64,000 nucleotides of DNA. It comes from Thermoflexibacter ruber (lineage in GTDB: Bacteria; Bacteroidota; Bacteroidia; Cytophagales; Thermoflexibacteraceae). The stretch lies in NCBI RefSeq assembly GCF_900113045.1, contig NZ_FONY01000012.1, positions 1 through 64,000 of the forward strand. Reading direction: 5' to 3'. The translations under genes and the position numbers were made by a program. The notes under the pieces were generated by a model. It was not told the origin of the DNA. It made no database searches and saw only the letters and a program-made list of their open reading frames with translations. Positions 81-49,384 of this stretch are shown here, in pieces. Numbering within the stretch: position 1 is the first letter of the stretch; each line of letters opens with the position of its first letter.

Positions 81-88
81 GTTAAAAT

Positions 89-424: not shown

Positions 425-537
425 AGTTTTTTATTTTATTGAATACACTTAGTTTGAAATGGTTTGATTTTGTTTAAAATGGTTTTACGAGGTTAGTATT
501 TTTCCATTCCTCATGCCAGATTTTCAAAATTCCAGCT

Positions 538-1494
538 TTAAAGAACAGGGTAAAGAATATTTTTGGCTTCTCCCTCAAAGCACCGAGAAAGGGAGGCTGT
601 AGTGCGCTGACAAGCGACCATTAGGGGTCGCGTATCTCCGTCTATGCTTACGTCCATGACAGGAATTTGCAAAAAGATTTTTTTCATAGAGGGGGTAAGG
701 GTTAAAGCCCTACCCCGGTTTTCTGCCCCACCCCTGCCCTCAGTATGCACTGCGTCCCCAAAGGAGAGGGAGTTTTGCTCAGCGAGGATTTGGTGAACCA
801 GCCTGTCTATGTAAGGACGGTATGGTTCCATGATGTCATCGGCAAGGCAGTAGGCATTGTACTGGTTGTGGTGATGAATCCCAAAGGTAGGGAGTAGCCC
901 AGAGCCTACTAAGCTGCGGGCTACTATGGCTCTGAGAATGGCATAGCCGTAGTTGAGCAGGTGGTTAGGCGGCTCGCCTTCGGGGTGTCGAGTAAAGTCA
1001 TCCGTAAACTCAGAAAAGATTTTTCCCCAATAATAAGCTGCTGCTTTTGCCTCTCGGTTGGTGCTGTCGCCTGACTGCACTTCTTCTATGCAGTCTTTGA
1101 GCGTGCGTACCTCATAGCCCAAAGCCTGCAAGAGGCTCGCCTGATTGCGGATTTTTGCCTTGACGGTTTGCTGCCAAAGTCGTTTTTTGGTCGGTTCGGA
1201 AGCAGAGATTTGCCTGTTGAACTTGAGGGTTTGCTGAGAGTGTACGTTGAGCGGGAGGAGCAAGCCCGTAGGCAGGTGCTTCTCATCGCAGGTAATAAGG
1301 GCTACGTTGTTGTTGAGCAGAGCCTGAATCAGCCCTTGGGTAACCGTAACTTGCTGGTGGTCTATGATGACGATGCCGATGTCTTCTATGGGAATAGGCT
1401 CAAGAGGAGCATTGCCTTCTATCTTGATGAGCAACTGCTCGTGCTTCCTGCTTAGGTAAGCGGGATTGCCAAAGTATAGGGTGCGCTTAATCAT
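538..1494 (-). CDS. cas1: CRISPR-associated integrase Cas1 (type II)
   Basis: 318 aa when started at the ATG at 1494, which gives the typical type II N-terminus MIKRTLYFGNPAYLS. An upstream in-frame start at 1569 would add 25 poorly Cas1-like residues and is not preferred. The metal-binding residues are visible: Glu148 in REAKAAAYYWGKIF, the His triplet at 208-210 in FGIHHHNQYN, and Asp220/Asp221 with Glu224 in ADDIMEPYRP. Cas1 catalyses spacer integration together with Cas2. It lies 114 bp downstream of cas9 and is probably co-transcribed. No cas4 or csn2 gene is present, which supports subtype II-C. Confidence 0.96.
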   Translation of the reverse strand: MIKRTLYFGNPAYLSRKHEQLLIKIEGNAPLEPIPIEDIGIVIIDHQQVTVTQGLIQALLNNNVALITCDEKHLPTGLLLPLNVHSQQTLKFNRQISASEPTKKRLWQQTVKAKIRNQASLLQALGYEVRTLKDCIEEVQSGDSTNREAKAAAYYWGKIFSEFTDDFTRHPEGEPPNHLLNYGYAILRAIVARSLVGSGLLPTFGIHHHNQYNAYCLADDIMEPYRPYIDRLVHQILAEQNSLSFGDAVHTEGRGGAENRGRALTLTPSMKKIFLQIPVMDVSIDGDTRPLMVACQRTTASLSRCFEGEAKNILYPVL

Positions 1495-1608
1495 AAAGGT
1501 TTTAGAAGTAAAAAAGGAAAACGGAAGGGGTAGGAGGGGGTATATATTTAGACCTGTTAGCAGTTCCACTGTGGGTTTAAAAACTAACAGGTCTTGTGAA
1601 TTAGGAAG

Positions 1609-4600
1609 TTATACGCTTTTTTTGCGTCTGATGTTTCCTAAAATGTCGATTTCTACAGGAATTCCATTAAAATTTTTCCCTAATGGATAAATCTTAAGTG
1701 GAAGTGGGTCTGAATCTACATTTACTTTAGCTAAATGATGTTGTGAAAGAAAAATTTTTCCATTTGTTTTAGTCATTTTTCTAACAATGTACAACTTATC
1801 AAAAAGAAACCTACGTGCCTCTAAGTCTATCCTGTCCCAATTGATGTGCTTTTCTATCTCGTCGGGGTGGTTTTCATAGACTACGAACATATCGCCCTGC
1901 CTTGCCGTCAAGACCAATTTTTTACTGCCTCTCATGGAGTCTAAGACGGGTAGTTTTTTGATTTTTCTTTGTACGGCTTCGTAGAAAGAGGTGATATAGA
2001 CTTCTTTCTCTCCTGTGTTTGGGTCTTGGTAGATTCCCATGATGTAGTTACTTCCCGAAGGAACGTACAGGTTGCGTTTGTAGTCCTCATCTCCTTCTTT
2101 TTTATACAGAGGAATCATGCCTTCGTCATCTTTGTTTATGGCAATGCGTACCTTTTTGATAGGCATTTGCCAGCCTTTATTGTTGGTATCGGGCATATAA
2201 ATAGGCTCGGCAAGTGCCTGTTTGAAGCCTTTTTCTGCTATGGCTTTCTGTACGGTTTCTCTGATGACCCTATCTACTATCTGCTCGACTTGGTTTTCGT
2301 TCAAACTGCTTAGTTTTTTCCTGACAAAATACGCAGTTTTGGTTTTCTTGTCTTTGGCGGGCGGTGCCCCTTTGGGCAAGATGTGTTTGCCGTAATAGGT
2401 TGCTTCGTGAAGCTCACCTCTGATGCCTATTTGTACGCTTGTTTTTTTCTTTCCATTTTTTGTTTTGGTGATGGCTTTGCGCTTTATCAGTATGCCATTG
2501 TCTTGACGGTAAGAAACCAGCATACCGTGTAATTGCTGTTGGACATCGTATCGGAAACTGCTCCAAGGCAGGTCTATTTTTCTGCGTTCTTTTTTCCAGT
2601 CTATGTCTTTGGCGTTTGCCCAGTTGATAAGTTGTACTTTTGCTCTATTTGTACAGGCAATCACGATGGCATCTAAGGCATGGTGTCGGTGGTCGCCCCT
2701 GTCCTTCTCATTTTCTCCTTCTGGATTGAGCAGGGCATTTAACCCCCAATACCTTCTGAGCATACTCGTAATGGCACCTTGCGTAGTCTGCACGTCTTTG
2801 CATACAGATTGTAGCCTTTTAGCCATTTCTCTGGCGATGTAAGCCGTATCTGTGAGTTGGCTATTTCTGAATCCCTCTATTTCTTTTTCCCAAAGGAGGC
2901 GTTCCTGCTTGGGTTTAGGCAGCATCTTGATTCTGTGTTTGAAAGCCAGCCATTCTTCTTTGGTTTTCTTTTGAAAATACTCATAAGGCGTAAGGTTTCC
3001 TTTCTCGGCGTTGAACCAAGCCTCAGCAATAGATTTATTGGCAAAGGAGTCATCAAAACTGCGACTGTACGGCAAGATGTGTTCTATTTCATAATCTTTG
3101 GAAAATAGGCGTTGGAAAGGGATAACTTTACCTGTATAAACAGAAATGCGCTGTGCCTCTATCCATAATCTATACTTGTCCATATCATCTTTACCTATTT
3201 TACGAGCAAAATCTGCAAAACCTTTTTTAATACCTATTTCGTTGAGGTCTTTGTCAGCTACGGCAAGCTCGAGCCAAAGTTCGTACTTGCGTACATCTTC
3301 CATGTCTGGCTTGCTATTCAAGTCAAATTCTCTTTGTTTCCCAAAAAGCATCATAGAGTTTTCAGCTAAAAACTTTGCCAACTCTCTTCTGCGGTCAGTT
3401 TTTGCCTTGAGTTCTTTTTCTCTTTCATCTCTTTTTTTCTTGGTTTTCTTTAACTCTCTTGCTGTTTCTATACAAATGCTCTCTATTTCATATTCTTGCA
3501 ATAAGCGATTGACCAATTTGATAGTTTCTGTCAAGGCTCTTTGCACAGTAGGATTGCGGAGTTCGTTGTTTTGAAGTTTAGGGATTTTTGGGAGTAGCTT
3601 TCTATGCTTGTCAGGGAGCAGGGCATGGTCATAACCTGCTAATAGACAAGCATTGGTATAGTCTTCTCCAGTTTTCAAATACGCCAAAATAGGTCTTATG
3701 GCTTTGTAGCTAAGGCTGCCGTTTCCGTCTTCTAAGTTTTGGGCGGCATATTTTTCTGCCTGAACTTCTGAGAAGCCTAACTTTTCCACTGCATATTTTT
3801 TTAGCCATTTGTCGTTGTCTGCATAGAGCAGTGCGTGCCATATTTTGAAAAAATTAGTTTTCCTTTTCTCCTCGTACTCAAAGGCTTCGTTGTATGCTTG
3901 GTAAATTTCATCATATTTTTCGCCCAAGACCCTCCTCAATTTGATAGCAGTGGTATTTCCTTTGATGTCGTCCTCCTCTTTGTAGTTTAGATTTGCCTCC
4001 GTTCCCCATTCTTTTTTGAAAAGAGCCTTGATTTGCTTGAAAGTAAGACGCATTTCCTTGTTGGTCAGTCTGTCTAACTCATAGGCTATTTTTTGTTTTT
4101 CTTCTAAGGTGAGTAGGTCAGCTATGCGATTTTTATCAGGAATGGTAACTTTTATGGTGCTTAATTTCTGCCAAATCCTAAACTCTTGGAACTCTATGGC
4201 GGCTTTGGGGATACAGGAAGATTTAGGTTCAAAAGGGCATTTTTCCGTTTTCCCTTTTTGAGTCTTTAGCTTCCTTTGGTAGAAAATAGTTTCTTTTCCT
4301 ATCTCATTTTTTAGCTTTTCTGTCAGGATTTGAGGGTAAAACTGCTTTTGTTTTTCCCAAATCTGCTCAAATTCATCTTTGAGTAACTCCCTGCTTGTAT
4401 AGCGTTTTTCAGTAGGAAATCGATTACGAATGGCTTGTGCTGCTGTAAAGTCATGTTTTCTGTCTTGCAACAGCTTCCAATACAATTCTCCAATAGTTCG
4501 ACTATGGTGCGCTTGCAACAGGCTTTCGAGTTCCTTGATGCCTTCTTTTACCTTGCCCAATTCTTTTTCCTTGTCCTTATCTGCATTGGCTTGTTCTTTC

Positions 4601-4971
4601 CTATTGCTCTGGAAGCCCCTGCGTTGATTCAGGTGTAAAAAGACCCTGCCTAATTCCTCCAAACTTATTTGCTTGTCTAATGCTTTTGCTCTTAACTCGT
4701 ACACATGATAAGGGAACTTCTCTACGTATTTAGGCAACATCTTAGTTTTTGAAAGTAGATTTTGTAGTTTTTCCCTTCTTTGCTTGTAGCGGTGGTTATT
4801 TCTTCTCGCACCTCTGGCAGCGCGTCTTTGAATATTGCGAGGCTCTCCTGTTTTTTCGGTAACCCCTTGCGGAAAAATGTGAATGTTGGAATGAATAAGT
4901 TTTTTTTCCGTGTTTACAATAGCCCAACCGATAGAGTTAGTGCCAATGTCTAAGCCTAAAACGTTTCCCAT
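1609..4971 (-). CDS. cas9: CRISPR-associated endonuclease Cas9, subtype II-C
   Basis: 1120 aa, in the II-C size range. Both nuclease centres look intact. RuvC-I is GLDIGTNSIGWA (Asp8), followed by an arginine-rich bridge helix (about 45-70). RuvC-II is CIETARE (Glu502). The HNH motif is YEIEHILPYS (His631) with the ANKS and NAEKGN segments downstream. RuvC-III is HRHHALDAIVIA (His764, Asp767). The C-terminal third is the PAM-interacting region. Cas9 cuts target DNA guided by crRNA and tracrRNA. It is the first gene of the leftward cas operon. No clear consensus promoter is seen directly upstream; the tracrRNA candidate starts from the same 270-bp gap in the opposite direction. Confidence 0.97.
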   Translation of the reverse strand: MGNVLGLDIGTNSIGWAIVNTEKKLIHSNIHIFPQGVTEKTGEPRNIQRRAARGARRNNHRYKQRREKLQNLLSKTKMLPKYVEKFPYHVYELRAKALDKQISLEELGRVFLHLNQRRGFQSNRKEQANADKDKEKELGKVKEGIKELESLLQAHHSRTIGELYWKLLQDRKHDFTAAQAIRNRFPTEKRYTSRELLKDEFEQIWEKQKQFYPQILTEKLKNEIGKETIFYQRKLKTQKGKTEKCPFEPKSSCIPKAAIEFQEFRIWQKLSTIKVTIPDKNRIADLLTLEEKQKIAYELDRLTNKEMRLTFKQIKALFKKEWGTEANLNYKEEDDIKGNTTAIKLRRVLGEKYDEIYQAYNEAFEYEEKRKTNFFKIWHALLYADNDKWLKKYAVEKLGFSEVQAEKYAAQNLEDGNGSLSYKAIRPILAYLKTGEDYTNACLLAGYDHALLPDKHRKLLPKIPKLQNNELRNPTVQRALTETIKLVNRLLQEYEIESICIETARELKKTKKKRDEREKELKAKTDRRRELAKFLAENSMMLFGKQREFDLNSKPDMEDVRKYELWLELAVADKDLNEIGIKKGFADFARKIGKDDMDKYRLWIEAQRISVYTGKVIPFQRLFSKDYEIEHILPYSRSFDDSFANKSIAEAWFNAEKGNLTPYEYFQKKTKEEWLAFKHRIKMLPKPKQERLLWEKEIEGFRNSQLTDTAYIAREMAKRLQSVCKDVQTTQGAITSMLRRYWGLNALLNPEGENEKDRGDHRHHALDAIVIACTNRAKVQLINWANAKDIDWKKERRKIDLPWSSFRYDVQQQLHGMLVSYRQDNGILIKRKAITKTKNGKKKTSVQIGIRGELHEATYYGKHILPKGAPPAKDKKTKTAYFVRKKLSSLNENQVEQIVDRVIRETVQKAIAEKGFKQALAEPIYMPDTNNKGWQMPIKKVRIAINKDDEGMIPLYKKEGDEDYKRNLYVPSGSNYIMGIYQDPNTGEKEVYITSFYEAVQRKIKKLPVLDSMRGSKKLVLTARQGDMFVVYENHPDEIEKHINWDRIDLEARRFLFDKLYIVRKMTKTNGKIFLSQHHLAKVNVDSDPLPLKIYPLGKNFNGIPVEIDILGNIRRKKSV

Positions 4972-5008
4972 AGATAAAATTTGGTTTTGAAAAAAAGTGA
5001 TGAATAGG

Positions 5009-5038
5009 TTGGTTTTTATTCACAATTTATTAACTTTG
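5009..5038 (+). promoter_or_regulatory. Consensus Bacteroidota promoter for the tracrRNA candidate
   Basis: TTG (5009-5011), a 19-base spacer, and TAACTTTG (5031-5038) match the Bacteroidota primary sigma factor pattern TTG-N19-TAnnTTTG exactly. Transcription would start near 5045 and run away from cas9. Confidence 0.7.
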
Positions 5039-5044
5039 AATCAA

Positions 5045-5152
5045 TTTAACAAATCTTTTTAAAAACATATTATTTGTTTTTAGCTTTTCACAATAAAGAT
5101 TATTCTGAAGACTTTATTGTTCTGCCCCCACTTCTTGTCGGGGCTTTTTTAT
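5045..5152 (+). ncRNA. Putative tracrRNA of the II-C CRISPR system
   Basis: About 108 nt between a consensus promoter and an intrinsic terminator, divergent from cas9. The 5' part (about 5060-5095) would be the anti-repeat. Its reverse complement begins ATTGTGAAAAGCTAAAAAC, which resembles Bacteroidota II-C repeats that begin GTTGTGA...GCT. Next comes a stem of ACAATAAAG (5090-5098) with CTTTATTGT (5112-5120) around GATTATTC, similar to what I recall of other Bacteroidota tracrRNAs. A GC-rich terminator hairpin follows. The assignment rests on location, signals and resemblance; the array repeat that would prove pairing is not in the window. Confidence 0.7.
5124..5150 (+). terminator. Intrinsic terminator of the tracrRNA candidate
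   Basis: GCCCC (5124-5128) pairs with GGGGC (5140-5144) around a short loop, followed by six T at 5145-5150. The minus strand has no T run, so it works only rightward. Confidence 0.75.
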
Positions 5153-5243
5153 TTATATCCCTACAAAGGGAAAGTAAGAAAGAGTTTACTTAGGCACTTC
5201 CACAGGCTTCTAAGATAGTATAGTTTTTTATTTTAGCAAGCCC

Positions 5244-5774
5244 TCAAAATAAAGCAGGATAGTTTTTTGCGGAAATGCAATTAAAATGAGTTGCAATTTC
5301 ATGATTTGCACAAAGATGAAGTTGCTGCTCCTCCAAATACCGCTCTACTTTCTCTGCGGCAACTACGTTGGCTTCGCTTACATCGTAGGAGTAAGGCTGT
5401 CCGTTGCCGTAGAGAGTAATCTCAAAAAACAAATGACTAACCCAAATATGACAATTCGTCTGCTCCAAAGGGCAATTTAAAATCTGACAGTGAGAGGGTT
5501 GCAAATACTCAGGATAGTCATGGATAGGGCTTTCAAAGGCTTTTAGCTCAGAGGGCGTAGGTCTGAGCATGACTAATCGTGAAATTTTATCGAGGAGGTC
5601 TTTTTTGTCTTTGTAGTCCAGCCTTACCGTCAAAGACTCATAAAACTCTGCGTGTCCAGAGAAGAAGTTACCAAAAAGATAAAAATAGTGAAGCCTTTTT
5701 GCCCAAGCAATCATCTCTTCTGCTGTATGTCCTCCTAAAAATCGGTCTAAGGTATTGCTCATGTCCTGTCGCAT
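5244..5774 (-). CDS. Protein of unknown function next to the cas9/tracrRNA locus
   Basis: 176 aa (172 if the second ATG at 5762 is used). I do not recognise a family. No signal peptide or membrane segment is evident. The chain is rich in aromatic residues and histidine (RLHYFYLFGNFFSGHAEFYE), has a HLFFEITLYGNGQPYSYD segment suggesting beta strands, and an acidic helix VVAAEKVERYLEEQQ. Several Cys and His residues are scattered in the C-terminal half. It is on the cas9 strand, but the tracrRNA candidate converges on it, so it is probably not part of the cas operon. It has no overlapping better reading frame and appears to be a real gene. The CRISPR association is positional only. Confidence 0.6.
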   Translation of the reverse strand: MRQDMSNTLDRFLGGHTAEEMIAWAKRLHYFYLFGNFFSGHAEFYESLTVRLDYKDKKDLLDKISRLVMLRPTPSELKAFESPIHDYPEYLQPSHCQILNCPLEQTNCHIWVSHLFFEITLYGNGQPYSYDVSEANVVAAEKVERYLEEQQLHLCANHEIATHFNCISAKNYPALF

Positions 5775-6086
5775 TTTATGCTTATGAGATTTAAGAAACT
5801 GTTTGAATTAACGCCGCAGGGGTGAAATATGCCACTCCTACGGAGTTATTTTAGCCTAATTATTTAAGAATTTCTACCAATATACCATTCCTAATGGAAT
5901 TAAATATTAACTCAAACAACTTTTAGAGAATAATTTTGGAACACGGATTTTACAGATTAGACGGATTTCCACTGATGAATTACTCAAAAATCTCTGTTTC
6001 ATAGGTAAAATCAGCATTATCTTTTTTCTATAATAATTATCAAAAGGCATAAAAGCAAATATTAGCAAAAAATAGCTAAAAAATTT
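5775..6086. other. Non-coding gap with dispersed-repeat-like sequence
   Basis: No convincing gene. A weak 89-aa minus-strand frame (5907-6176) is low-complexity and overlaps the TonB receptor promoter. The gap holds a hairpin repeat at 5810-5846, a small ATTCC-TAAT-GGAAT hairpin at 5887-5900, and repeated ACGGATT/AGATT units at about 5945-5972 of a kind common in Bacteroidota non-coding DNA. Confidence 0.6.
5810..5846. repeat. Dispersed hairpin repeat, copy 1
   Basis: The segment starting AACGCCGCAGG and containing TGAAATATGCCAC and CTACG recurs, slightly diverged, at 38041-38077. CGCAGGGGTG pairs with CACTCCTACG (one mismatch, one G-T wobble) around a short loop. Two copies 32 kb apart in non-coding DNA suggest a REP-like element. 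Confidence 0.6.
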
Positions 6087-6105
6087 ATTTAGAATTAATC
6101 TAAAT
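6087..6105. promoter_or_regulatory. Dyad operator upstream of the TonB receptor promoter
   Basis: ATTTAGA (6087-6093), five bases, TCTAAAT (6099-6105): perfect 7-bp arms ending five bases before the promoter TTG. The half-site TCTAAATAA recurs at 6159-6167, directly before the start codon. Placement around an iron-uptake-type gene suggests a Fur- or DtxR-type regulator, but this is inference. Confidence 0.45.
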
Positions 6106-6109
6106 AATC

Positions 6110-6139
6110 TTGTTTTTTCAAAAAGCTCTTTTACTTTTG
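6110..6139 (+). promoter_or_regulatory. Consensus promoter of the TonB receptor operon
   Basis: TTG (6110-6112), 19 bases, TACTTTTG (6132-6139): an exact Bacteroidota-type promoter. The start site would be near 6146, leaving a leader of roughly 23 nt. Confidence 0.7.
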
Positions 6140-6168
6140 CTTTATTATTTATAATAAGTCTAAATAAA

Positions 6169-8340
6169 ATGAACACAAATAAATTTCTCCTTTATTTTCT
6201 TTTTTTACTTTTTCCTGCGTTGTGTTTTGCTCAAAAAGCAGATAGTACACAAGCCAGCAAAGACACTACGCTTACGCTTAAAGATATGACACTCAACGAA
6301 GTGGTCGTTTTCTCAAAAATCGGTGTAACCCAAGTCGAGCCTCAAAAGATAAAGTACGCCATCAGCGATTTGCCTTCGCAAAACGGGGGAACAGCAGGAG
6401 ATATTCTCAAAAATATGCCCAGCGTAGCTATGGGCGGCAGTCCTAACCACAATCGCGACATCAGGTACCGAGGCTTGGGCAATGGCTATACCACTGTACT
6501 CATCAATGGAAAACAAGCAGGCATGATAGGCAACAACAGGGAAACCGTCTTGGACATGATTCCTGCCACTCAGATAGAATACATAGAAATTATTTCGAAC
6601 CCTTCGGCAGACCATGTTTCCAATGGCATCAACGGAATAGTGAATATTGTGTTGAAAAAAGGGGCAAGCATAGGCACAAGTGGGCAGGTCTCTTTTTTTG
6701 CGGATAACTTGAAGGGCTACAATAGCCATGCAAGCGTGCAACACACCCAAGGGAACTTTTCTATTTCAGGCAGTTTCGAGAAGCTAAAAAGAAATGCAGA
6801 TAAGTTTGACAATGGAAGCCAGATAAAGTACAATACTGACGGTTCTGTGAAAGAAACCGTAGGCATCGACAAAAGTGAAATCAAGTCTTTTGACAACACA
6901 AGTGCCAGCCTAAGAGCAAGTTACCAGACCAAGAACAATTGGAAAGTGGTAGGAGAATATTTTTATGGTACGCAAGTAGAGGACAAAACCAAAGAGGAAC
7001 TCAATAGAACTTTTAACGCTAACACTACATTTAAAAGTGGGAAAAGTCGGGTGGAAACGGAACTCAAAAACCTAAAATTCCACAATCCCTCAGTTTCTTT
7101 GGAAAAAAATTGGGAAAATAGCTCCTTAGTATTTGCCTTCAATACCAACTTTACTGAAGAAAGCAAGGCAAAAACCCTCAAAGACTACAATGCCAATGCC
7201 CAAGGGGTTCGCATAGAAAACGTACTTCCTGCCCAGCAAAAAGAAAACGAAATCATTGATTTTAAAAATTACTTTCCCACTGTGGCTTTCACCAACCAAG
7301 TCAATAAGAACTTCTCTTTTAAAACAGGTTATCAAGGCTTTATCACCGAAAGAAAGGCTGATAGGCAGATGCAGAGATTGAATAATAGCAACAATACATG
7401 GACTATCGTATCTACCAATACCAATCAGTTCAACTTAGAAGAATATACTCATGCGGGCTATTTTTCAGGGAATTTAAACTTTGAAAAACTGAGAATAACT
7501 ATAGGCTATAGACACGAATACACCGCTATCAACTCCCAATCTATTGCCAATACGACTGAGGAAAATAAGGCGGACTACCACTTAGCATTGCCCAATGCGA
7601 GTTTGACGTACAACCTTACGCCCAAAAGTTACTTCAAGTCTTCAGTGGGCAGAAGAGTGCGAAGACCAGCCTATAACGACATGAACCCCTTTGTGGAAAT
7701 CAAAAGCCTCACCGAAATCAAAGTGGGCAATCCCGACTTAGTGCCAGAAACCGCTTGGGCGTATGAGGTAGGCTATTTCAACGAAATAAAAGGCGTAAAC
7801 TTTGGGGTCAATCTTTTCCACAGAGATATTAACAACTTGATTCAGAAAAACATTGCCACTGATGCAGATGGGCTTATCAAAGAAACGGTTATCAACCTGA
7901 GCCGTGCAGTATCCTCGGGAGCAGAGTTGTTAGTAGGTTTCCAAGCTACGAAATGGTACAGTGCCAACTTCAATTTTTCTAAGTTTTGGTCAGAAATCAG
8001 AAGCAATGAAGCCTTTGATGGAGAGGCTCTGAAAGACCAAACGGCATGGACTATCAAGGCATTACAAGATTTCAACATGCTAAAAAAAGTAAAGTTCCAA
8101 ATTGCTTCTAACTTCATAGGTCCGAAAAGAACTTCCCAAGAGTCAGAAGAAACGATTTGGTTTACCGATATTGCTTTGGAAAAACAATTTTTGGAAAAAG
8201 GCTTTTTTACTATTAGAATCACTGATATATTTGATTCTTTGAAAAAAGAAAAGACCAAAAACACAGGGATTCAGTTGGAAAGAATGACAGAAAATACTCC
8301 AGGACGCATTATCAGTGCAGGAATCCGTTGGCAATTTTAA
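6169..8340 (+). CDS. TonB-dependent outer-membrane receptor
   Basis: 723 aa with a signal peptide (MNTNKFLLYFLFLLFPALCFA/Q). A plug domain spans about residues 45-165 (DILKNMPSVAMGG, YRGLGNGYTTVLINGKQ, IEYIEIISNPSADH, GINGIVNIVLKKG), followed by a beta-barrel ending in the aromatic IRWQF. There is no N-terminal carboxypeptidase-like repeat, so it is not a SusC-type receptor. It resembles receptors for siderophores or other metal chelates. It lies 15 bp before a PepSY membrane protein, which supports iron uptake. A dyad operator and a consensus promoter precede it. The actual ligand is not evident. Confidence 0.9.
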   Translation: MNTNKFLLYFLFLLFPALCFAQKADSTQASKDTTLTLKDMTLNEVVVFSKIGVTQVEPQKIKYAISDLPSQNGGTAGDILKNMPSVAMGGSPNHNRDIRYRGLGNGYTTVLINGKQAGMIGNNRETVLDMIPATQIEYIEIISNPSADHVSNGINGIVNIVLKKGASIGTSGQVSFFADNLKGYNSHASVQHTQGNFSISGSFEKLKRNADKFDNGSQIKYNTDGSVKETVGIDKSEIKSFDNTSASLRASYQTKNNWKVVGEYFYGTQVEDKTKEELNRTFNANTTFKSGKSRVETELKNLKFHNPSVSLEKNWENSSLVFAFNTNFTEESKAKTLKDYNANAQGVRIENVLPAQQKENEIIDFKNYFPTVAFTNQVNKNFSFKTGYQGFITERKADRQMQRLNNSNNTWTIVSTNTNQFNLEEYTHAGYFSGNLNFEKLRITIGYRHEYTAINSQSIANTTEENKADYHLALPNASLTYNLTPKSYFKSSVGRRVRRPAYNDMNPFVEIKSLTEIKVGNPDLVPETAWAYEVGYFNEIKGVNFGVNLFHRDINNLIQKNIATDADGLIKETVINLSRAVSSGAELLVGFQATKWYSANFNFSKFWSEIRSNEAFDGEALKDQTAWTIKALQDFNMLKKVKFQIASNFIGPKRTSQESEETIWFTDIALEKQFLEKGFFTIRITDIFDSLKKEKTKNTGIQLERMTENTPGRIISAGIRWQF

Positions 8341-38253: not shown

Positions 38254-38307
38254 AATATTAATAAGTTTTAGACGTTCCACGTGGAACGTCTAAAACTTAT
38301 TAATATT
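38254..38307. promoter_or_regulatory. 54-bp perfect palindrome centred on a parS-like core
   Basis: 27-bp arms without mismatch and without a spacer, axis between 38280 and 38281. The centre CGTTCCACGTGGAACG differs from the parS consensus TGTTNCACGTGAAACA only at the outer and one inner position, in a way that makes it fully symmetric. No T run follows, so it is not an ordinary terminator. It is a probable ParB binding site. Confidence 0.65.
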
Positions 38308-38369: not shown

Positions 38370-38385
38370 TGTTCCACGTGAAACA
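38370..38385. promoter_or_regulatory. parS centromere site
   Basis: TGTTCCACGTGAAACA is identical to the widely conserved bacterial parS consensus. It is flanked by 9-bp inverted arms AATACATAA (38355-38363) and TTATGTATT (38387-38395). In known systems ParB loads at parS near the replication origin. No parA or parB gene is in the window. Confidence 0.8.
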
Positions 38386-38619: not shown

Positions 38620-40485
38620 ATGTATCCAAGTTACGATATTATAGTAGTAGGTGCAGGACACGCAGGTTGCGAGGCGGCACATGCCGCTGCTAAAATGGGA
38701 GCAAAGGTCTTGCTTGCCACCATGAATATGCAAACCATTGCTCAGATGAGTTGCAATCCTGCAATGGGAGGGGTTGCCAAAGGGCAAATCGTCAGAGAAA
38801 TTGATGCATTGGGCGGAATGTCAGGCATTATTACAGACAAGACCATGATCCAATTCCGTATGCTCAACCGTTCCAAAGGGGCAGCCATGTGGAGTCCAAG
38901 AGCGCAGTCTGATAGAATGAGGTTTGCAGAAGAATGGCGTTTGGCTTTGGAAAGAAATCCTAACGTGGACTTTTGGCAAGAAATGATACCCAGCCTGCTC
39001 ATAGAAAATGGGAAAGTAGTAGGAATCAAAACTGCTTTGGGCATAGAATTTAGAGCAAAAGCCGTCGTTCTTACTAATGGAACTTTCTTAAATGGATTAA
39101 TCCATATAGGTACTAAACAGTTTGGGGGAGGAAGAACAGGAGAAAAAGCAGCCACAGGAATCACAGAGCAGTTAGTAGGCTTAGGTTTTGAAGCAGGAAG
39201 AATGAAGACAGGAACACCTCCAAGAGTGGACGGGAGAACGCTCAACTACGAGGCTATGCAAGAGCAAGAAGGAGACGAAAATCCAAGTAAATTTTCTTAT
39301 TCTGATGAAACCCAACCTTTGAAAGAGCAAAGGAGTTGCTTCATTACTTATACCAATGAAGATGTCCATGAAATTCTAAGGTCAGGATTTGACCGTTCTC
39401 CTATGTTCAATGGAACAATTAAGTCAATCGGACCCCGTTATTGCCCTTCGGTAGAAGATAAAATTAACCGATTTGCAGAGAGAGAACGTCATCAAATTTT
39501 TGTAGAACCAGAAGGCTGGAATACAGTAGAAGTATATGTCAATGGTTTTTCTACTTCACTCCCAGAGGATGTGCAGTATAAAGCATTGAAAAAGATACCC
39601 GGTTTTGAAAATTGCAAAATGTTTCGTCCTGGTTATGCCATAGAATACGACTACTTCCCTCCTACCCAACTCAAACCAACGTTAGAAACAAAATTGGTAG
39701 AGAATCTATTTTTTGCAGGGCAAATCAATGGAACTACAGGTTATGAAGAAGCCGCCTGTCAAGGGCTAATAGCAGGAATAAATGCTTATAACAAAGTATT
39801 TGGGAAAGAAGAATTTGTACTAAGTCGTGCAGAAGCATATATTGGCGTATTGATTGATGACTTGGTGCATAAAGGCACAGAAGAACCCTATCGCATGTTT
39901 ACCTCGAGGGCAGAGTATAGAATCCTTCTGCGACAAGACAATGCAGACATTCGTTTGACGGAAAAGGGGTATAAAATAGGCTTGGCAGAAGAAAGTCGCT
40001 TAGCAAAAGTACAAGCGAAACTCAGAGATACAGCAAAAATTATAGCTTTCTTGAAAAATAAAAGTATTTCCCCTACTGATGTCAATGATAAGCTAAGAGA
40101 AATGCAATCCGCAGAACTTTCTCAAAGCCAAAAAGCAGCACAACTCCTCAAACGCCCTGAAATGGAATTGGCAACCTTGATGAATATGACAGAAGGATTG
40201 AAAGAGGAATTGAGTAGGTACAGCGAAGAGGCTTTAATGCAAGCAGAAATCTTGGTCAAATATGATGCTTATATTGAAAAAGAGGAAAAGTTAGCAGAAA
40301 AGTTGGGAAACTTAGACAATATCAAATTAGGAGATTGGTTAAATTATAAGGAGATTAAACAGCTTTCCAACGAGGCAAGGGACAAACTAACCAAAATAAA
40401 ACCGCAAACTTTGGGGCAGGCATCAAGGATTAGTGGTGTTTCCCCTGCAGATATTTCGGTGCTAATGGTCTATTTGAACAAATAA
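38620..40485 (+). CDS. mnmG: tRNA uridine-5-carboxymethylaminomethyl modification enzyme MnmG (GidA)
   Basis: 621 aa, full length. The FAD motif is [19 protein letters not shown]. Other segments are [22 protein letters not shown], the conserved [27 protein letters not shown] and [18 protein letters not shown], plus the C-terminal tRNA-binding region ([18 protein letters not shown]). With MnmE it forms the cmnm5U34 modification in tRNA. In many bacteria the gene lies next to the origin; here it directly follows the parS region. Confidence 0.97.
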
Positions 40486-41644: not shown

Positions 41645-43339
41645 ATGAAAGCTGTTTATCGACTTATTCACCACTTATTCACATTTTTATTTGTTTCATT
41701 TTTGTTTTATGACTGTGCTAGCATAGGTACACCCACAGGAGGTCCTAAAGATACGAAGCCTCCTGTTTTGCTCAATGTCATTCCCAAAGACCAAAGCACC
41801 AATTTCAAAGGAAGAGTCATTGCCCTACAATTTAATGAATACATAGAACTGAAAAATATCAAACAAGGTTTGCTCATTACGCCAAGCCTGAGCGAGGACA
41901 ATGACTATGAGTACAAAATCAACCAGCCCAACTTGATTCTTACTTTCAAGAAAGACCTTGCACCGAATACTACTTACGTGCTTGACTTTGGGGAGGTAGT
42001 AACCGATGTAACTGAAAAAAATAAAGCAGAAAATCTCAAGTTGGCTTTTAGTACAGGAATTTCTATAGATTCTTCTTTTATACAAGGCACGGTCAGAGAT
42101 CTATATACCAACAAGCCTCTCATCAAAGGAACCGTAGGGATTTATAATGCAGAAGATACACTCGATATCGAGAAAAATAAGCCCCTTTATTATACCAAGA
42201 CCGATTCCTTAGGCAAGTTCAAACTTCGCAATTTAAAACCTGCAAAATATAAAATCTATGCTTTGTTAGAAGATAAAAAAAAGGACAACATTTACAATGG
42301 GGACGTAGAAGAAAAAATTGCATTCTTGGACAAACCCGTAGATTTGACTAACCGTCCCTTCGCATTAGTAGATGAACTCAGAGTAGCGAGCTATGACTTA
42401 AAGCCTATCAAACTGCTTAGACCAAGAAAAAATAGGCATTATGTAGAATGGAGAGCAAACAAAGAAATAGACAACTATGAAGTAAAATTTACTGATAGCC
42501 AATACGATACAGCAGTATTACATACCAAAGAAAAAGACTTTGTGCGATTTTTTCATACAAGCAACACTGATACAGATAGTATAGAAATCACACTCACGGT
42601 GAGAGATAGCCTTGGTAACTTCGCCACAGAAACTAATAAAATAAAGTTCGAGCAAGTAGAAAAACTCCGACCACTCGGGTTATCATTTAGTGAATTTCCT
42701 AAAAGTGGCACAGCCTTCGAGCCTCGCAAAGACAGTACCTATCAAGTCAATCTCACTTTTAGATTTAACAAGCCTATGAAAGAAATTATTAACATAGACA
42801 GCATCTTCTATAAAGTTTCTCCCAAAGATACTATAGGGCAAAAATTAGCACTAAACGATTTTCAATGGAATGAAAATAGAACCGCTATTAGTATCTCTAA
42901 AAAAATATTCTCCAAAGAGCCTATCAATTTTACACTCAAAAAAGGAGTTTTTATTTCTATGGAAAACGACTCCTCTGCTGCCAGACCTATCATCTCCTAC
43001 CCTATCAAAAAAATAGAGGAATTTGGTACTATCAGTGGGCAAGTTCGCTCCCAGCTGTACAAATCCTTTATTATTCAGCTTTTAGACGAAGGCTATAAAC
43101 AAGTAGAGCAAGAAATCGCCAATACCACAAACTTCAAATTTACTTATGTAAAACCCGGAAAAAAGCGTATTAGGGTATTAATAGATGAAAATAACGATGG
43201 CAAGTGGGAAAAAGGAGATTTTAAAAACCGCATTCCGCCTGAGAAAATATTTTTTTTCAAAGAAGCAATACAAGTCAAACCCAACTGGGACTACGAGGAT
43301 AATCTAATAGATTTAGATGATGCGGAGCAGGTAAAGTAA
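41645..43339 (+). CDS. Ig-like domain lipoprotein (Bacteroidota PTGGPKD family)
   Basis: 564 aa. The membrane signal ends FLFYDC, a probable lipobox, followed by ASIGTPTGGPKDTKPPVLLNVIPKDQ, a hallmark of a family widespread in this phylum. A Big_5-like domain (about 35-140), then carboxypeptidase-regulatory-like repeats (GTVRDLYTNKPLIKGTVGIYN; TISGQVRSQ) and a final RVLIDENNDGKWEKGDF segment suggest a beta-sandwich envelope protein. Function is unknown. Two DnaA-box-like 9-mers lie in its first 50 bases. Confidence 0.8.
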   Translation: MKAVYRLIHHLFTFLFVSFLFYDCASIGTPTGGPKDTKPPVLLNVIPKDQSTNFKGRVIALQFNEYIELKNIKQGLLITPSLSEDNDYEYKINQPNLILTFKKDLAPNTTYVLDFGEVVTDVTEKNKAENLKLAFSTGISIDSSFIQGTVRDLYTNKPLIKGTVGIYNAEDTLDIEKNKPLYYTKTDSLGKFKLRNLKPAKYKIYALLEDKKKDNIYNGDVEEKIAFLDKPVDLTNRPFALVDELRVASYDLKPIKLLRPRKNRHYVEWRANKEIDNYEVKFTDSQYDTAVLHTKEKDFVRFFHTSNTDTDSIEITLTVRDSLGNFATETNKIKFEQVEKLRPLGLSFSEFPKSGTAFEPRKDSTYQVNLTFRFNKPMKEIINIDSIFYKVSPKDTIGQKLALNDFQWNENRTAISISKKIFSKEPINFTLKKGVFISMENDSSAARPIISYPIKKIEEFGTISGQVRSQLYKSFIIQLLDEGYKQVEQEIANTTNFKFTYVKPGKKRIRVLIDENNDGKWEKGDFKNRIPPEKIFFFKEAIQVKPNWDYEDNLIDLDDAEQVK

Positions 43340-43872
43340 AAAAAACAATAATTAAAAAATAATTTCAATTTTATTTGATTTTATATTTTTATATTGTAAT
43401 TTTGTAATACTTATACAATCCAATCATTATTCACCATTTTGTGAAGTTTTCTTGGATAGCCAATGAATAAAAGTTGAATAACTTGAATAAGTTCGCATAG
43501 CTTAACTTTTTATAATGGCTTATTCAAAATTTGGCTTCTTTATCTTTTGCTTTTTTCACAAGCTATTCACCTACTCTTTTATTCAATGTAGTTTATATTT
43601 TTATTCACTATTCAAAAATAGTGTGAATAAACAGTCTAACCTATCCCAAAATAAATACAAACAATCATGCAAGATTTTTCCAAAGTGAATGAATTTTGAA
43701 TAAGTTTTTTAGCCCTTTTAACTAAACACTTATTCACATATTCACGTCTTAATAAGTATAATAAAATCTATTTTATATAAATCAATTTTATTAGTATATT
43801 GTTGTTGATTTGTGAATAAACAAATTTGGAGTTTGAGGTTTACTGTTTTATGATTTAAAATTGAGAAGAATT
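43340..43872. other. Candidate replication origin (oriC)
   Basis: 533 bp without a gene, very AT-rich, holding a cluster of DnaA-box-like 9-mers. Exact TTATTCACA: 43730-43738 (+), 43622-43630 (-), 43811-43819 (-). One-base variants: 43427 (TTATTCACC), 43601 (TTATTCACT), 43520 (TTATTCAAA). TTATTCANN or close: 43462, 43473, 43482, 43563, 43579 and 43695. The left end (43336-43420) is almost pure A/T and could be the unwinding element. mnmG and parS sites lie 3-5 kb away. No dnaA gene is in the window. Confidence 0.55.
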
Positions 43873-45675
43873 ATGTTGAAAAGATTAGCATTTGTTTTTG
43901 TAATTTGTCTGCCTGCACTTGCTTTTGCCCAAGACAAGGAAATAGATTTGGCAAATGAATATTATAGCAATGGAGAATATGAGAAGGCAATTTCCATATA
44001 TAGTAATATTACCAAAGAAAGACAATTTGTCTTTACCGTGCATAAGAATTACTTAGATGCGCTGCTCAAATTGGAGAAATTTGATGAAACAGAAAAATAC
44101 CTCAAACGACAACTTAGAAACTTTCCTAACGAGAGCCTTTTTCAAGTGGACTATGGTGTTTTTTTGATTATGCGTGGCAAAAAGGAAGAAGCTGAAAAAC
44201 ATTTTGCGGCTTATATAGAAACTTTGAAAAAGGACGATGCCCAGATTCGCTATGCGGCGCGTAATTTTATTAATGCCAATCTGTACGATTATGCCGAGCA
44301 ACTCTACTTAGCTGGGCGCAAGAATGGCAATGATAAGTTTACTTACGAGTTGGCGAGCCTATATGCTATGGCGGGAAAAACGGATATGATGATTACTGAA
44401 TACTTGGATATACTCAAAGATGATGAGGAGCAGCTGGAGTACATAGAAAACATTATGCAAGCCCGCATGAGAGAGGAGGAGGACTTTGCAAAGATTGAGC
44501 CTGTAATTTTTAAGTTTATCCAACGCTATCCTGATAAGGTAGTATATAATGAGATGTTAGTATGGTTTTATGTGCAGATGAAAAATTTTAGTAAAGCTTT
44601 TTTCCAAGCTAAATCAGTAGATAAAAGAAAAAAATTAGAGGGAAGTGGAATTTATGATATTGGCAACTTGGCAATGGAAAATAAAGATTACGAAAATGCT
44701 ATCAAGATTTTTGAGTTTTTAGTAGAAAGATACAGAAAAGAAAGTATCTATGTCATGGCACGTCGTCAGTTGGTCAAGGCAAAAGAAGAATTAGTAAAAA
44801 ATACTTTTCCTGTGGACATAGAAAAAATCAAATCCTTAGTCAAAGATTATCAACAAATTATAGGGGAGTTGGGTTTGGTGGATTATACCGCAGAGGCAGC
44901 GCGAAGCATGGCACTCCTTCAAGCGTTTTATCTAAATAATAAGGATACTGCTATCAAAGTTTTTGAGGAAATTATTAATAAACCTACTATTCGCAAAGAC
45001 TTTACCGACCAAGTAAAGTTAGATTTAGGAGATATTTACTTGCTTAAAAATGAACCTTGGGAATCTACCCTTCTCTATTCCCAAGTAGAAAAACGCCAAA
45101 AAGAAAAAGATTTGGGACACTTAGCCAAGTTGAAAAATGCTAAACTTTCTTATTACAAAGGAGATTTTGAACTGGCAAAAGAAAACTTAGATGTGTTGAA
45201 ACTGGCAACAAGTCGTGAAATAGCCAATGATGCTATGCAACTTTCGCTATTGATAGGGGATAACATTGCCTTAGACACTACCGAAGCGGCTTTGAAAGAG
45301 TATGCCTCTATAGACCTACTTGTCTTTCAAGGGCAGCTCGAGAACGCCTTAGAAAGATACAAAGCCATGCAAAAGCAGTTCAGCTATCATCCTATTGTTG
45401 ATGAAATTCTCTGGGCAAAGGCAAATATCTACTTGAAATTGGGGAAATTTGAGCAGGCTATAGACGAACTGACTAAAATTATAGAAGAACATAACGATGA
45501 TATTTGGGCAGATGATGCCAACTTTCTCATTGCTAAGATATATGACGAAAACCTGAAAAATAAAGACAAGGCAATGGAATACTATCAAAAACAACTCACT
45601 GACTATCAAGGGAGTATATATTCTTTAGAAGCAAGAAAGCGATACAGGCAGCTTAGAGGAGACAACGTAAATTAG
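43873..45675 (+). CDS. Tetratricopeptide-repeat protein with signal peptide
   Basis: 600 aa from the ATG at 43873; a TTG four codons upstream is not preferred. The signal peptide is MLKRLAFVFVICLPALAFA/Q. The rest is almost all paired helices with TPR spacing: NEYYSNGEYEKAISIYSNI, NYLDALLKLEKFDETEKYLK, GNLAMENKDYENAIKIFEFLV, KANIYLKLGKFEQAIDELTKII and DKAMEYYQKQLTDYQGS. TPR arrays scaffold protein complexes, here in the periplasm. The gene follows the candidate origin directly. Partner unknown. Confidence 0.85.
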   Translation: MLKRLAFVFVICLPALAFAQDKEIDLANEYYSNGEYEKAISIYSNITKERQFVFTVHKNYLDALLKLEKFDETEKYLKRQLRNFPNESLFQVDYGVFLIMRGKKEEAEKHFAAYIETLKKDDAQIRYAARNFINANLYDYAEQLYLAGRKNGNDKFTYELASLYAMAGKTDMMITEYLDILKDDEEQLEYIENIMQARMREEEDFAKIEPVIFKFIQRYPDKVVYNEMLVWFYVQMKNFSKAFFQAKSVDKRKKLEGSGIYDIGNLAMENKDYENAIKIFEFLVERYRKESIYVMARRQLVKAKEELVKNTFPVDIEKIKSLVKDYQQIIGELGLVDYTAEAARSMALLQAFYLNNKDTAIKVFEEIINKPTIRKDFTDQVKLDLGDIYLLKNEPWESTLLYSQVEKRQKEKDLGHLAKLKNAKLSYYKGDFELAKENLDVLKLATSREIANDAMQLSLLIGDNIALDTTEAALKEYASIDLLVFQGQLENALERYKAMQKQFSYHPIVDEILWAKANIYLKLGKFEQAIDELTKIIEEHNDDIWADDANFLIAKIYDENLKNKDKAMEYYQKQLTDYQGSIYSLEARKRYRQLRGDNVN

Positions 45676-45836: not shown

Positions 45837-45995
45837 ACGTAATTACTGCCCAACTCACCGCAAACTTTTACATACTTTCATGCTCACTATTGAAAAAACC
45901 TTTAACTTTATTCAAGCCTATTGATGTAAATTTCTTTACTTTGCAAAATTATCGTTTCACTTGATTTTTGAGTTTAGTCAATTTTATTATTGCAA

Positions 45996-47039
45996 ATGGA
46001 ATTTACAGTCCAACAAATCGCACACATACTAAAAGGAGAAGTAAAAGGAGATAATACCAGAAAAATAAATAATTTGGCAAAAATACAAGAAGCCAAAGAG
46101 GGAGACATTTGCTTTCTGTCTAATTTGAAATACGAAAACTATTTATACACTACTGAGGCGAGTGCAGTCATTATCAACAAAGATTTTGAGCCTAAAAAAG
46201 AATACCAATCTACGCTTATTTTAGTTGATGATGCTTACACTGCTTTTTCCGTATTGTTAGAAGAATATGCTAAAATCATTAATTTTTCTAAAATAGGCAT
46301 AGAACAACCCTCCTATATCGCTCCTACAGCCACTTATGGAGAAGGAGCATACATAGGAGCCTTTGCTTATATAGGGAATTACGTCAAAATAGGAAATAAT
46401 GTCAAGATTTATCCTCATGTTTATATAGGTGATAAAGTAAGCATAGGCGACAATACCATTCTATATGCAGGAGTAAAGATATACGCAGACTGTAAAATAG
46501 GAAATCAATGCACTATTCATGCTGGGGCTGTGATAGGTAGTGATGGTTTTGGGTTTGCTCCTCAGTCAGATGGTACTTATAAGGCTATCCCCCAAGTAGG
46601 CACTGTAATTATAGAAGACAATGTAGATATAGGAGCGAACACTACCATAGACAGAGCTACTATGGGAGCAACTTTAATAGAACAAGGCGTAAAATTGGAC
46701 AATTTGATTCAAGTAGCCCACAATGTGCGTATTGGAAAAAATACCGTCATTGCCTCGCAGGTAGGCATTTCTGGCTCTACTACTATAGGCGAAAATTGTA
46801 TTATTGCGGGTCAGGTCGGAATAGTAGGTCATATTCGTATTGCCAATAGAACTACTATAGGAGCGCAGTCTGGAGTTTCTAACTCTATAGATAAAGAAGG
46901 GATGACTGTACTTGGCGCACCTGCCATAGACCATAGAGAGCAACTAAAAAACTATGTGATTGCTCGTAAATTACCTGAATTTAAGAAACGCATAGAAGAA
47001 CTCGAGAAAAAAATTGTAACTTTGCAAGAATCAAAGTAG
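45996..47039 (+). CDS. lpxD: UDP-3-O-(3-hydroxyacyl)glucosamine N-acyltransferase LpxD
   Basis: 347 aa from the ATG at 45996. The N-terminal uridine-binding domain ([17 protein letters not shown]...[24 protein letters not shown]) precedes a left-handed beta-helix of hexapeptide repeats. The catalytic His is in [16 protein letters not shown], and [16 protein letters not shown] is a family signature. The C-terminal helix is an arm of the trimer. It adds the N-linked acyl chain in lipid A synthesis. It leads the lpxD-lpxC/fabZ-lpxA cluster. Confidence 0.96.
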
Positions 47040-47105
47040 TGATAGCTTTCTCATAGATAAAATTATTTTTTCACCTGCCAAATAAAAATTGAATATTGAA
47101 ATACC

Positions 47106-48509
47106 ATGTTATATAGCAAGCAACATACGATTCAGAAATCAGTTACCTTGTCAGGAGTAGGTCTGCACACAGGCGTACAAGCAAACATGACTTTTCTTCC
47201 TGCACCTCCTAATCACGGCATTAAGTTTCAAAGAATTGACTTAGAAGGGCAACCCATTGTAGATGCCGATGCAGACAATGTGGTCGACTTATCAAGAGGC
47301 ACTACCATAGAGCAAAGTGGTGCAAGAATAAATACGGTAGAACATACCTTAGCGGCTTTGGTAGGAATGCAGATAGATAATGTACTTATTCAATTAGATG
47401 GTCCTGAGCCACCTATCATGGACGGAAGCTCTCAACAATTCATAGTGGCATTACAAACCTGCGGTCTGCAAGAGCAGGATATGCTGAGAAATTTCTTCCA
47501 ACCCGAGCAGGGAATCTTTTACCAAGAGCCGGATAGAGATGTAGAGATAGCCGCCTTGCCTTTGGACGACTATCGCCTTACCGTCATGGTAGATTACAAC
47601 TCCCCTGTACTGGGAAGCCAGCACGCTTCTTTGAATGATATAGAGCAATTTTCTGAGGAAATAGCCTCCTGTCGCACTTTTTGCTTTTTGCATGAGTTAG
47701 AGATGCTATACAAAAACAATCTTATTAGAGGAGGAGATTTGAACAATGCCATTGTCATCGTAGATAGGGTAGTAGAAGATGGTGAATTAGAATACTTAGC
47801 CTCGCTTTTTAACAAACCCAAAGTTGAGGTCAAAAAAGAGGGGATTTTGAATAATATAGAACTGCGTTATAAAAATGAGCCAGCCCGTCATAAATTACTG
47901 GATTTGGTTGGGGACTTGGCTTTAGTAGGCAGACCTTTGAAAGCACAAATCTTAGCAGCGCGACCCGGGCATGCGGCAAACGTGGGTTTTGCAAAGAAAA
48001 TCAAAAAAGCAATGAAAAAGGCACAAAACAAGGAGCAGATTCCTGTTTACGACCCCAAGATGCCGCCCGTTTTTGACATCAACAGAATAGCAGAGCTTTT
48101 GCCACATCGCTATCCTTTTCTAATGATAGATAAGATTATTCAATTAGATGAAACTACAGTAACCGCAGTAAAAAATATTACTGTAAACGAGCCTTATTTC
48201 ATGGGGCATTTTCCTAACAATCCGGTCTTTCCCGGTGTATTGCAAATAGAGGCAATGGCGCAAACAGGAGGCATCTTGGCAATCAATAATATGGGAATCA
48301 ATGAGCAATGGTGGACTTATTTTCTCAGTGTCGACCAGTGTCGTTTTAGAAAAATGGTTATTCCGGGCGATACAGTAATTTTTAGATGTGAACTTCTCGA
48401 GCCTATCAGGAGAGGAATCGTAAAGATGAAAGGTATGGCTTATGTTGGGAGCGACTTAGTTTGTGAGGCAGTAATGTCTGCAAGATTGGTAAAAAAAGAG
48501 ACTAATTAG
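47106..48509 (+). CDS. lpxC/fabZ: Bifunctional LpxC deacetylase / FabZ dehydratase
   Basis: 467 aa. Residues about 1-305 are LpxC, a zinc deacetylase of lipid A synthesis: VEHTLAALVG carries one zinc His and ARHKLLDLVGDLALVG the other ligands. Residues about 320-467 are FabZ, the 3-hydroxyacyl-ACP dehydratase: LLPHRYPFLMIDKI, then YFMGHFPNNPVFPGVLQIEAMAQ with catalytic His and Glu. This fusion is known from Bacteroidota and couples lipid A and fatty-acid branches. It lies between lpxD and lpxA. Confidence 0.97.
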   Translation: MLYSKQHTIQKSVTLSGVGLHTGVQANMTFLPAPPNHGIKFQRIDLEGQPIVDADADNVVDLSRGTTIEQSGARINTVEHTLAALVGMQIDNVLIQLDGPEPPIMDGSSQQFIVALQTCGLQEQDMLRNFFQPEQGIFYQEPDRDVEIAALPLDDYRLTVMVDYNSPVLGSQHASLNDIEQFSEEIASCRTFCFLHELEMLYKNNLIRGGDLNNAIVIVDRVVEDGELEYLASLFNKPKVEVKKEGILNNIELRYKNEPARHKLLDLVGDLALVGRPLKAQILAARPGHAANVGFAKKIKKAMKKAQNKEQIPVYDPKMPPVFDINRIAELLPHRYPFLMIDKIIQLDETTVTAVKNITVNEPYFMGHFPNNPVFPGVLQIEAMAQTGGILAINNMGINEQWWTYFLSVDQCRFRKMVIPGDTVIFRCELLEPIRRGIVKMKGMAYVGSDLVCEAVMSARLVKKETN

Positions 48510-48562
48510 AAAGACTCTGTATCAAGTAGAGAGATTAAATGTTAAAAAAAATAAAATAAAAA

Positions 48563-49384
48563 ATGCTACATCATTTGGCATACATTCATCCTGAGGCGAA
48601 AATAGGAGCAAACGTAACTGTAGAACCTTTTGCATACATAGAAGCAGATGTAGAAATCGGGGAAGGAACTTGGATTGGGGCGCATGCAGTCATTAAAAAT
48701 GGTTCTCGTATAGGTAAAAATTGTAAGATATACTACGGAGCAGTTATTTCACAAATTCCTCAAGACCTTAAATACGAAGGGGAGCAGACTTTGACCATTA
48801 TCGGTGATAATACCGCAGTAAGAGAATACGCTACTATCAGCTGCGGGACAAAAGACCGTTTTCAAACAGTTATTGGTAAAAATTGCTTAATCATGTCTTA
48901 TGCTCATATAGCCCATGATTGTATTTTAGGAAATAATTGCATCATTGTTAATTCTGTGCAGATAGCAGGACACGTGGTCATAGACGATTTTGCTGTGATT
49001 GGGGGAACTGCCGCTGTTCAGCAGTTTGTAAGGATAGGCAAGCACGTTATGGTAGGTGGAGGGTCTTTAGTAAGAAAAGATGTACCTCCTTTTATCAAAG
49101 TAGCACGCGAGCCACTCAGCTATGTAGGTTTGAACTTAGTGGGCTTAAAGCGTAGAGGTTTTAGCTCTGAGAAAATCAATGAGTTACAAGAAGTCTATCG
49201 CACTATCTACCTCAAAGGATACAACAACTCACAAGCCTTGCATATTATAGAAAACAGTATGCCCTACTCTATTGAAAGAGATGAAGTATTAGACTTTATC
49301 AAGTCTTCTAAAAGAGGAATTATGCCTGCAAGCAGAAATGGAAAAAATGCACTCAATAATGGTCAAGCAGACGAAGATGAATAA
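48563..49384 (+). CDS. lpxA: UDP-N-acetylglucosamine acyltransferase LpxA
   Basis: 273 aa. Hexapeptide-repeat helix (IHPEAKIGANVTVEPFAYIEADVEIGEGTWIGAHAVI), the catalytic His in SYAHIAHDCILGNNCI, and the C-terminal helical domain beginning VGLNLVGLKRRGFSSEKI. It performs the first acylation of lipid A. It is 53 bp after lpxC/fabZ and 7 bp before the ABC ATPase gene, so one operon. Confidence 0.96.
   Translation: MLHHLAYIHPEAKIGANVTVEPFAYIEADVEIGEGTWIGAHAVIKNGSRIGKNCKIYYGAVISQIPQDLKYEGEQTLTIIGDNTAVREYATISCGTKDRFQTVIGKNCLIMSYAHIAHDCILGNNCIIVNSVQIAGHVVIDDFAVIGGTAAVQQFVRIGKHVMVGGGSLVRKDVPPFIKVAREPLSYVGLNLVGLKRRGFSSEKINELQEVYRTIYLKGYNNSQALHIIENSMPYSIERDEVLDFIKSSKRGIMPASRNGKNALNNGQADEDE

Follow-up and report, generated by a model that had tools for sequence, protein, structure and literature searches.

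The gene-free gap at positions 43340 to 43860 of the window (the whole stretch of DNA analysed here, 64,000 nucleotides long) is very probably the chromosomal replication origin, oriC, of a Cytophagales bacterium; judging from the sequence, we put the probability at about 0.9. This reading had been proposed in a first-pass annotation, and it stands as clearly the best explanation of the clustering of DnaA boxes, of a core shared with other genomes, of the GC skew of one complete genome (G039) and of the presence of parS. It is well supported because the core is kept where its usual neighbor, a gene for a TPR-repeat protein, has been replaced, or is found elsewhere together with the box cluster. 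It would be an origin of an ordinary kind with two features worth experiment: a mirrored core, in which DnaA boxes point toward one another from either side of an AT-rich segment, and a pairing between one base of the box and one residue of DnaA. The features of the locus are as follows.

43340..43860, no strand: predicted oriC gap, gene-free, about 520 bases, 22% GC, with DnaA-box array
43427, 43520, 43579 and 43601, plus strand: TTATTCA boxes of the array outside the core (range of the array 43427..43703)
43462, 43473, 43482, 43622 and 43695, minus strand: TTATTCA boxes of the array outside the core (same range)
43552, plus strand: TTTTTCACA box in the array
43730..43821, plus strand: conserved mirrored core, 92 bp, the best site of profile R1 in its own genome
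43730-43738 and 43738-43746, plus strand: left arm of the core, tandem DnaA boxes TTATTCACA and ATATTCACG, similar in G001 and G002
43747..43763, plus strand: TAATAAGTATAATAA tract after the tandem boxes, DnaA-trio-like
43747..43810, no strand: AT-rich candidate unwinding element between the arms
43759-43793: imperfect palindrome inside the candidate unwinding element
43811..43819, minus strand: right arm of the core, inverted DnaA box TTATTCACA, 81 bp after the start of the left box
41664-41672 and 41675-41683, plus strand: outlying boxes TTATTCACC and TTATTCACA, within the beginning of the ORF to the left of the gap
43374..43404, plus strand: promoter-like match TTTG-N19-TAATTTTG, directed toward the TPR gene with the array in between
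41645..43339, plus strand: gene for a bacterial Ig-like (Big_5) protein, the ORF flanking the gap on the left
43861..45675, plus strand: gene for the TPR-repeat protein, the ORF flanking the gap on the right and the usual right-hand neighbor (match in 53 of 59 genomes, its own included)
38620..40485, plus strand: mnmG (gidA)
38273..38288, no strand: parS-like palindrome with the exact 12-base core TTCCACGTGGAA, starting at 38275
38370..38385, no strand: second parS-like site, one mismatch, with the near copy at 38372

Box clustering, unstable DNA and the surroundings of the gap

The gap contains, on both strands together, 11 copies of TTATTCA, five of TTATTCAC and three of TTATTCACA, where dinucleotide-preserving shuffles of the gap have means of 0.44, 0.04, and 0.03, respectively. 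For all three words alike, the observed count was reached in none of 2000 shuffles. Outside the gap, TTATTCA is found at most twice per 521-bp window when the 64 kb are scanned every 50 bp, and among 105 7-mers of the same composition it has the highest count in the gap, the runner-up reaching 4. Compared with TTATTCACA, there are eight boxes in the gap with at most one mismatch and 17 with at most two, some of these doubtful, so that the cluster of about twelve boxes on both strands announced for 43340-43872 in the first-pass annotation is a fair count. The two extra boxes that it placed near 41662-41682 are those listed above, and its A/T segment beside the boxes was likewise recovered: in addition to the low GC content of the gap, the two least stable 60-mers of the whole window start at 43350 and 43747, both inside it, the second least stable being the one at 43747. 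Both an AT-rich segment suited to unwinding and a box cluster beside it, as expected of an oriC, are thus present.

The annotation had also claimed that such boxes are rare by chance. This stands for the clustering in the gap, which is far above that of the shuffles, and fails for the window as a whole, where TTATNCACA at one mismatch occurs 78 times against 74 expected; window-wide enrichment of one-mismatch boxes was therefore rejected. In the entire genome there are 63 copies of TTATTCACA against 54 of the reversed control, which is no clear enrichment, and the full list of these 63 shows the gap to be the sole place in the genome with three copies inside 200 bp. The signal of the boxes is their clustering.

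Both mnmG, announced at about 3 kb from the gap, and parS, at about 5 kb, are found at these distances. The exact match to TTCCACGTGGAA is present at one place in the 5.5-Mb genome, before mnmG and 5 kb from the gap. The dnaA gene is on another contig and codes for a normal DnaA protein (TIGR00362); it is also far from the core in G015, G039, G044, and G047. The dnaA neighborhood, with four TTATTCA and one TTATTCAC in 20 kb, was rejected as an origin, and so was a pair on contig C46 consisting of just two exact boxes. The promoter-like match at 43374 is one of eight in 64 kb and corresponds to what we take to be the Bacteroidota-type promoter consensus; by eye, G001 and G002 are similar at this place. 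Transcription from such a promoter would cross the box array and enter the TPR gene. Directly after this gene, at 45990-49384, are the lipid A genes lpxD, lpxC-fabZ (a fusion), and lpxA. At the other end of the window, positions 89-4971 of the minus strand hold type II CRISPR genes (Cas9 at 1609-4971, TIGR01865; Cas1 at 538-1569; Cas2 at 89-424); no direct repeats of at least 22 nt were found in 1-6200, and a CRISPR array could precede the window.

The genome is in 123 contigs, and the cumulative GC skew of the contig carrying the gap has its minimum at 19.8 kb, with no minimum seen at the gap. Local skew roughly tracks gene direction in this contig, and skew inside the window or contig was rejected as an origin marker. 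In the complete genome G039, the box cluster (6,624,206-6,624,552) is about 17 kb from the cumulative minimum of a contiguous 375 kb, at 6,640,985. Among the sampled windows of this genome, 13 of 14 are negative from 3.15 Mb through the cluster, 13 of 17 positive from the cluster to 7.02 Mb, and all nine positive between 0 and 2.8 Mb. The minimum is displaced or noisy in G015, G044, and G047, where 20-kb samples put 7.9%, 21.1%, and 11.7% of the genome, respectively, between it and the core. The skew maximum is separated from the core by 48-50% of the genome in G015, G039, and G044 and by 32% in G047, a regularity remarked post hoc.

Distribution of the box cluster and of the mirrored core

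The 600 bp preceding the TPR gene contain at least three TTATNCAC in 16 of the 30 loci that were fetched (the best 30 of 53 genomes). The same holds for 28 of 79 named loci, which are the top 80 among at least 562 minus L142, which is too short; the two sets overlap in some genomes. No cluster was found at the TPR locus in 14 of the 30 and 51 of the 79, including Pontibacter and Adhaeribacter, whose loci are without any such box. Hence, this position is not universal. The form of the box varies as well. TTATTCAC is used in the genus of the window and in several genera of its family, with 16 copies in G011 and 10 in G004; another member of this family, G007, carries 21 TTATCCAC at the TPR locus. 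The classical box, TTATCCACA, is used in several other families, and Flammeovirga, Flexithrix, and G058 have other or mixed forms, the boxes of Flexithrix being of the T type. In G047, box cluster and core share a site at 2.059 Mb, and the TPR gene is 1.16 Mb away. This site (L178 8870-9578, C1 2.059 Mb) adjoins a glutamate dehydrogenase-like gene.

Alignments of the gaps reveal a recurring module made of two abutting boxes, a short and often C-rich spacer, a TAATAATA-like tract, 50-60 bp of A/T, and an inverted box. In the window, the second of the abutting boxes has two mismatches. Core-like left arms are present in 48 of 123 regions against five of 369 resampled controls, and in 40 of 110 when the 13 regions from a pattern search (see following) are removed. 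The automatic finding of cores requires T-rich triplets and so favors TAATA somewhat; for 16 cores, including sites mis-chosen and cores missed by the automatic search, the anchor was placed manually on left-arm words, ahead of the test of the right arm. The right arm was then sought 40-110 bp downstream of the left arm, in both box orientations and with the fifth base free, leaving out L129 (too short) and L027 (where the site is not the core). At one mismatch or fewer, 28 of 46 cores have an inverted box and none has a direct one, against an expectation of 1.6, related rows being counted more than once in this set. The result is 23 of 39 without the rows chosen by pattern, 22 of 39 without the family of the window, and 26 of 43 after dropping rows more than 80% alike, the direct count being zero each time. 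The right box starts 77-82 bp after the left box in 22 of the 27 clear cases.

TAATA is found within 16 nt after the second box in 30 of the 40 cores that were not chosen by pattern, against a shuffled expectation of 6.1 and against six of the same 40 at a control position 20 bases further in. Formally, three or more 3'-NAN-5' triplets lie no further than 16 bp from a box in the core of the window; shuffled AT-rich DNA gives runs equally long, and run length was rejected as a test of a DnaA-trio. Because triplet runs are no longer than chance, this label rests on position and conservation. An inner box in the right arm is seen, at two mismatches or fewer, in 11 of 27 cores against a shuffled expectation of about 5%, which is no more than suggestive of a second box there.

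The core can also be found independently of the TPR gene. The pattern TTATNCACNTATNCACN{1,9}TAATA, which names no gene, matches 14 of the 390 genomes from the order, with 15 listed places corresponding to 14 sites; its reversed control gives three hits. In 13 of the 14 the TPR gene directly follows the core. In the remaining one, G289, a gene for an AMP-binding enzyme (L249 1-1374) takes its place with the core kept in front, so the core is not simply the promoter of the TPR gene. Among the 13 other genomes matched by the pattern, a Big_5 homolog adjoins the core in nine.

A profile, R1, was made from 37 cores, none of them from the 13 genomes known to belong to the family of the window (f1); its E-values are rough. 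The top site of R1 in the genome of the window is 43730-43821 (25.8 bits, E = 5.4e-5), the minus strand of the same core reaches 20.9 bits, and the next distinct site 17.8 bits. Fourteen genomes were searched, four of which (G015, G039, G044, and G058) contributed to the training set, so that their matches are by construction. In genomes outside this set, R1 recovers the cores of G002 and G007 and finds one in G047 at 2.0595 Mb, where the independently found box cluster ends. It also scores strongly at candidate sites in G032 and G055, and weakly (E = 0.099) at a site in G020 that precedes the TPR gene. At the TPR locus, the cores of G001, G004, and G011 escaped the whole-genome search; the match in G011 is located elsewhere, and the core of G001 scores 18.4 bits in a smaller search. 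In a sample of the phylum, R1 matches 20 of 118 genomes at E ≤ 1e-4 (that of the window, four of the order, and 15 outside the order) and gave no match in the other 98. One of the four of the order is G045, a genome in which the TPR gene was not found. The core is common to several Cytophagales families and to some genomes beyond the order; cultured relatives that have it are Flexithrix, Fulvivirga, and Flammeovirga.

The fifth box base and residue 438 of DnaA

The residue of DnaA matching position 438 of E. coli, a numbering transferred through the positions given in PMC5043019, covaries with the fifth base of the box, box types being majorities (three T and one A in G002; 21 C and one T in G007). 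Ser (G000, G002, G008, and G011) or Thr (G004) is found where the boxes are TTATTCAC, and Ile (G007 and G015) where they are TTATCCAC. G047 has Ile and, at the fifth base, 13 C, three T, and two A. Because G044 has Val and a mixed set of boxes (one C, two T), it counts for neither side. The search for DnaA sequences did not find the one of G001. G005 and G009 have Thr and are without boxes at the TPR locus, from which T-type clusters were predicted; groups of such boxes were then found elsewhere in a search of same-strand pairs only, namely three boxes with T spanning 50 bp of G005 (C6:4875-4924) and nine, also with T, spread over about 700 bp of G009 (C22:25768-26478). In total, a polar residue accompanies T in seven of seven genomes and Ile accompanies C in three of three, that is, 10 of 11 genomes with one mixed. 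The Fisher test gives 0.008 for genomes that are related, and independent changes are therefore few. His439 is unchanged across box types and Ser435 is present in both groups. These data suggest that the fifth base, T here, may be read by the residue matching E. coli 438, Ser here.

A similar combination is found in Epsilonproteobacteria. Passages of PMC5043019 report T at the fifth base in 33 of 33 identified boxes and Ser438 in many DnaA of epsilon- and deltaproteobacteria; they leave open the cause of the epsilonproteobacterial specificity, naming positions 435, 438, and 439. The predicted origin of the window shares with these the T and, with many of them, Ser438; it differs in belonging to another phylum, in that His is kept at 439, and in that residue 435 does not track the box type. 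The same passages describe the fifth base as not important for binding by E. coli DnaA, an argument against a simple contact with residue 438.

Competing readings and significance

The gap resembles bacterial origins in general by its box array, its AT-rich segment, and the nearby parS, and differs from them by having dnaA elsewhere, a TPR gene as its usual neighbor, and TTATTCACA as its box. The proximity of mnmG (gidA) recalls E. coli, in which oriC is also close to gidA. The E. coli origin is placed between gidA and mioC in a passage of PMC10225481. The left arm resembles the basal unwinding system (BUS) of B. subtilis, which part of PMC8287927 describes as broadly conserved: both have tandem boxes (here TTATTCACA at 43730 and ATATTCACG at 43738), a short spacer, and a triplet-like AT tract. 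It differs in that a second, inverted box faces the first arm at a fixed distance, in that tandem boxes mostly start 8-9 bp apart, and in the degenerate tract of the genus of the window. A mirrored origin core in Bacteroidota was not found described among the listed titles and abstract starts of the open-licence literature, which is no proof of novelty.

In the proposed sequence of events, DnaA would fill the array at 43427-43703 first and the left pair and the right box afterwards. Filaments of ATP-DnaA would grow inward along single strands and melt 43747-43810; the opened AT-rich segment would take two helicases, and the forks would leave both ways. ParB at parS (38.3 kb) would then help to move the copied origin. 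These steps follow parts of the literature on DnaA and the BUS (PMC8287927, PMC10721633), and only the sequence features are observed here. More broadly, we tentatively propose, at chances clearly below even, that many Bacteroidota origins share a mirrored core at about 80 bp, each arm unwinding its own strand and handing over one helicase, and that in the family of the window residue 438 (Ser/Thr or Ile) sets the fifth base (T or C, respectively), a pairing that would also have arisen in Epsilonproteobacteria.

A one-sided origin, in which the left arm alone works as in the B. subtilis BUS and the inverted box is accessory, has in our view nearly an even chance. The left arm is the better conserved, the inner box and the triplets of the right arm are weak, and 18 of 46 cores are without an inverted box at one mismatch or fewer; the spacing of the inverted box is nevertheless kept across families, and R1 matches both strands of the core in G000, G047, and G044.

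DnaA titration loci such as E. coli datA have dense DnaA boxes. The gap has them too. A conserved gene follows it, a promoter-like match is present at 43374, and the skew of its own genome is not decisive; one may ask whether the gap is a datA-like titration site or a DnaA-regulated promoter region of the TPR gene instead of an origin. We consider this quite unlikely. The core stays in place when the TPR gene is replaced (G289) or not found (G045), it is away from this gene in G047 and G032, and the cluster of G039 is near the skew minimum, while titration needs no mirrored core with inverted arms around a very unstable candidate unwinding segment. Less likely still, the TTATTCA repeats would be bound by some other repeat-binding regulator or would be an effect of composition. 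The gap is indeed AT-rich, five of the 11 TTATTCA are TTATTCAA- or TTATTCAT-like and not TTATTCAC, and six of the 11 are without C, but shuffles and 7-mers of the same composition fall short of the TTATTCA count, and relatives have the classical TTATCCACA at the same place, or the 21 TTATCCAC in the case of G007.

Taking the gap as oriC, the mirrored core with its fixed spacing would be a natural test system for the loading of two helicases in opposite directions, a process called not understood in part of PMC10721633. The pairing of base and residue would narrow the question of epsilonproteobacterial specificity from positions 435, 438, and 439 to a single residue. Finally, the core gives a search profile for origins in draft genomes of Bacteroidota, where skew can fail.
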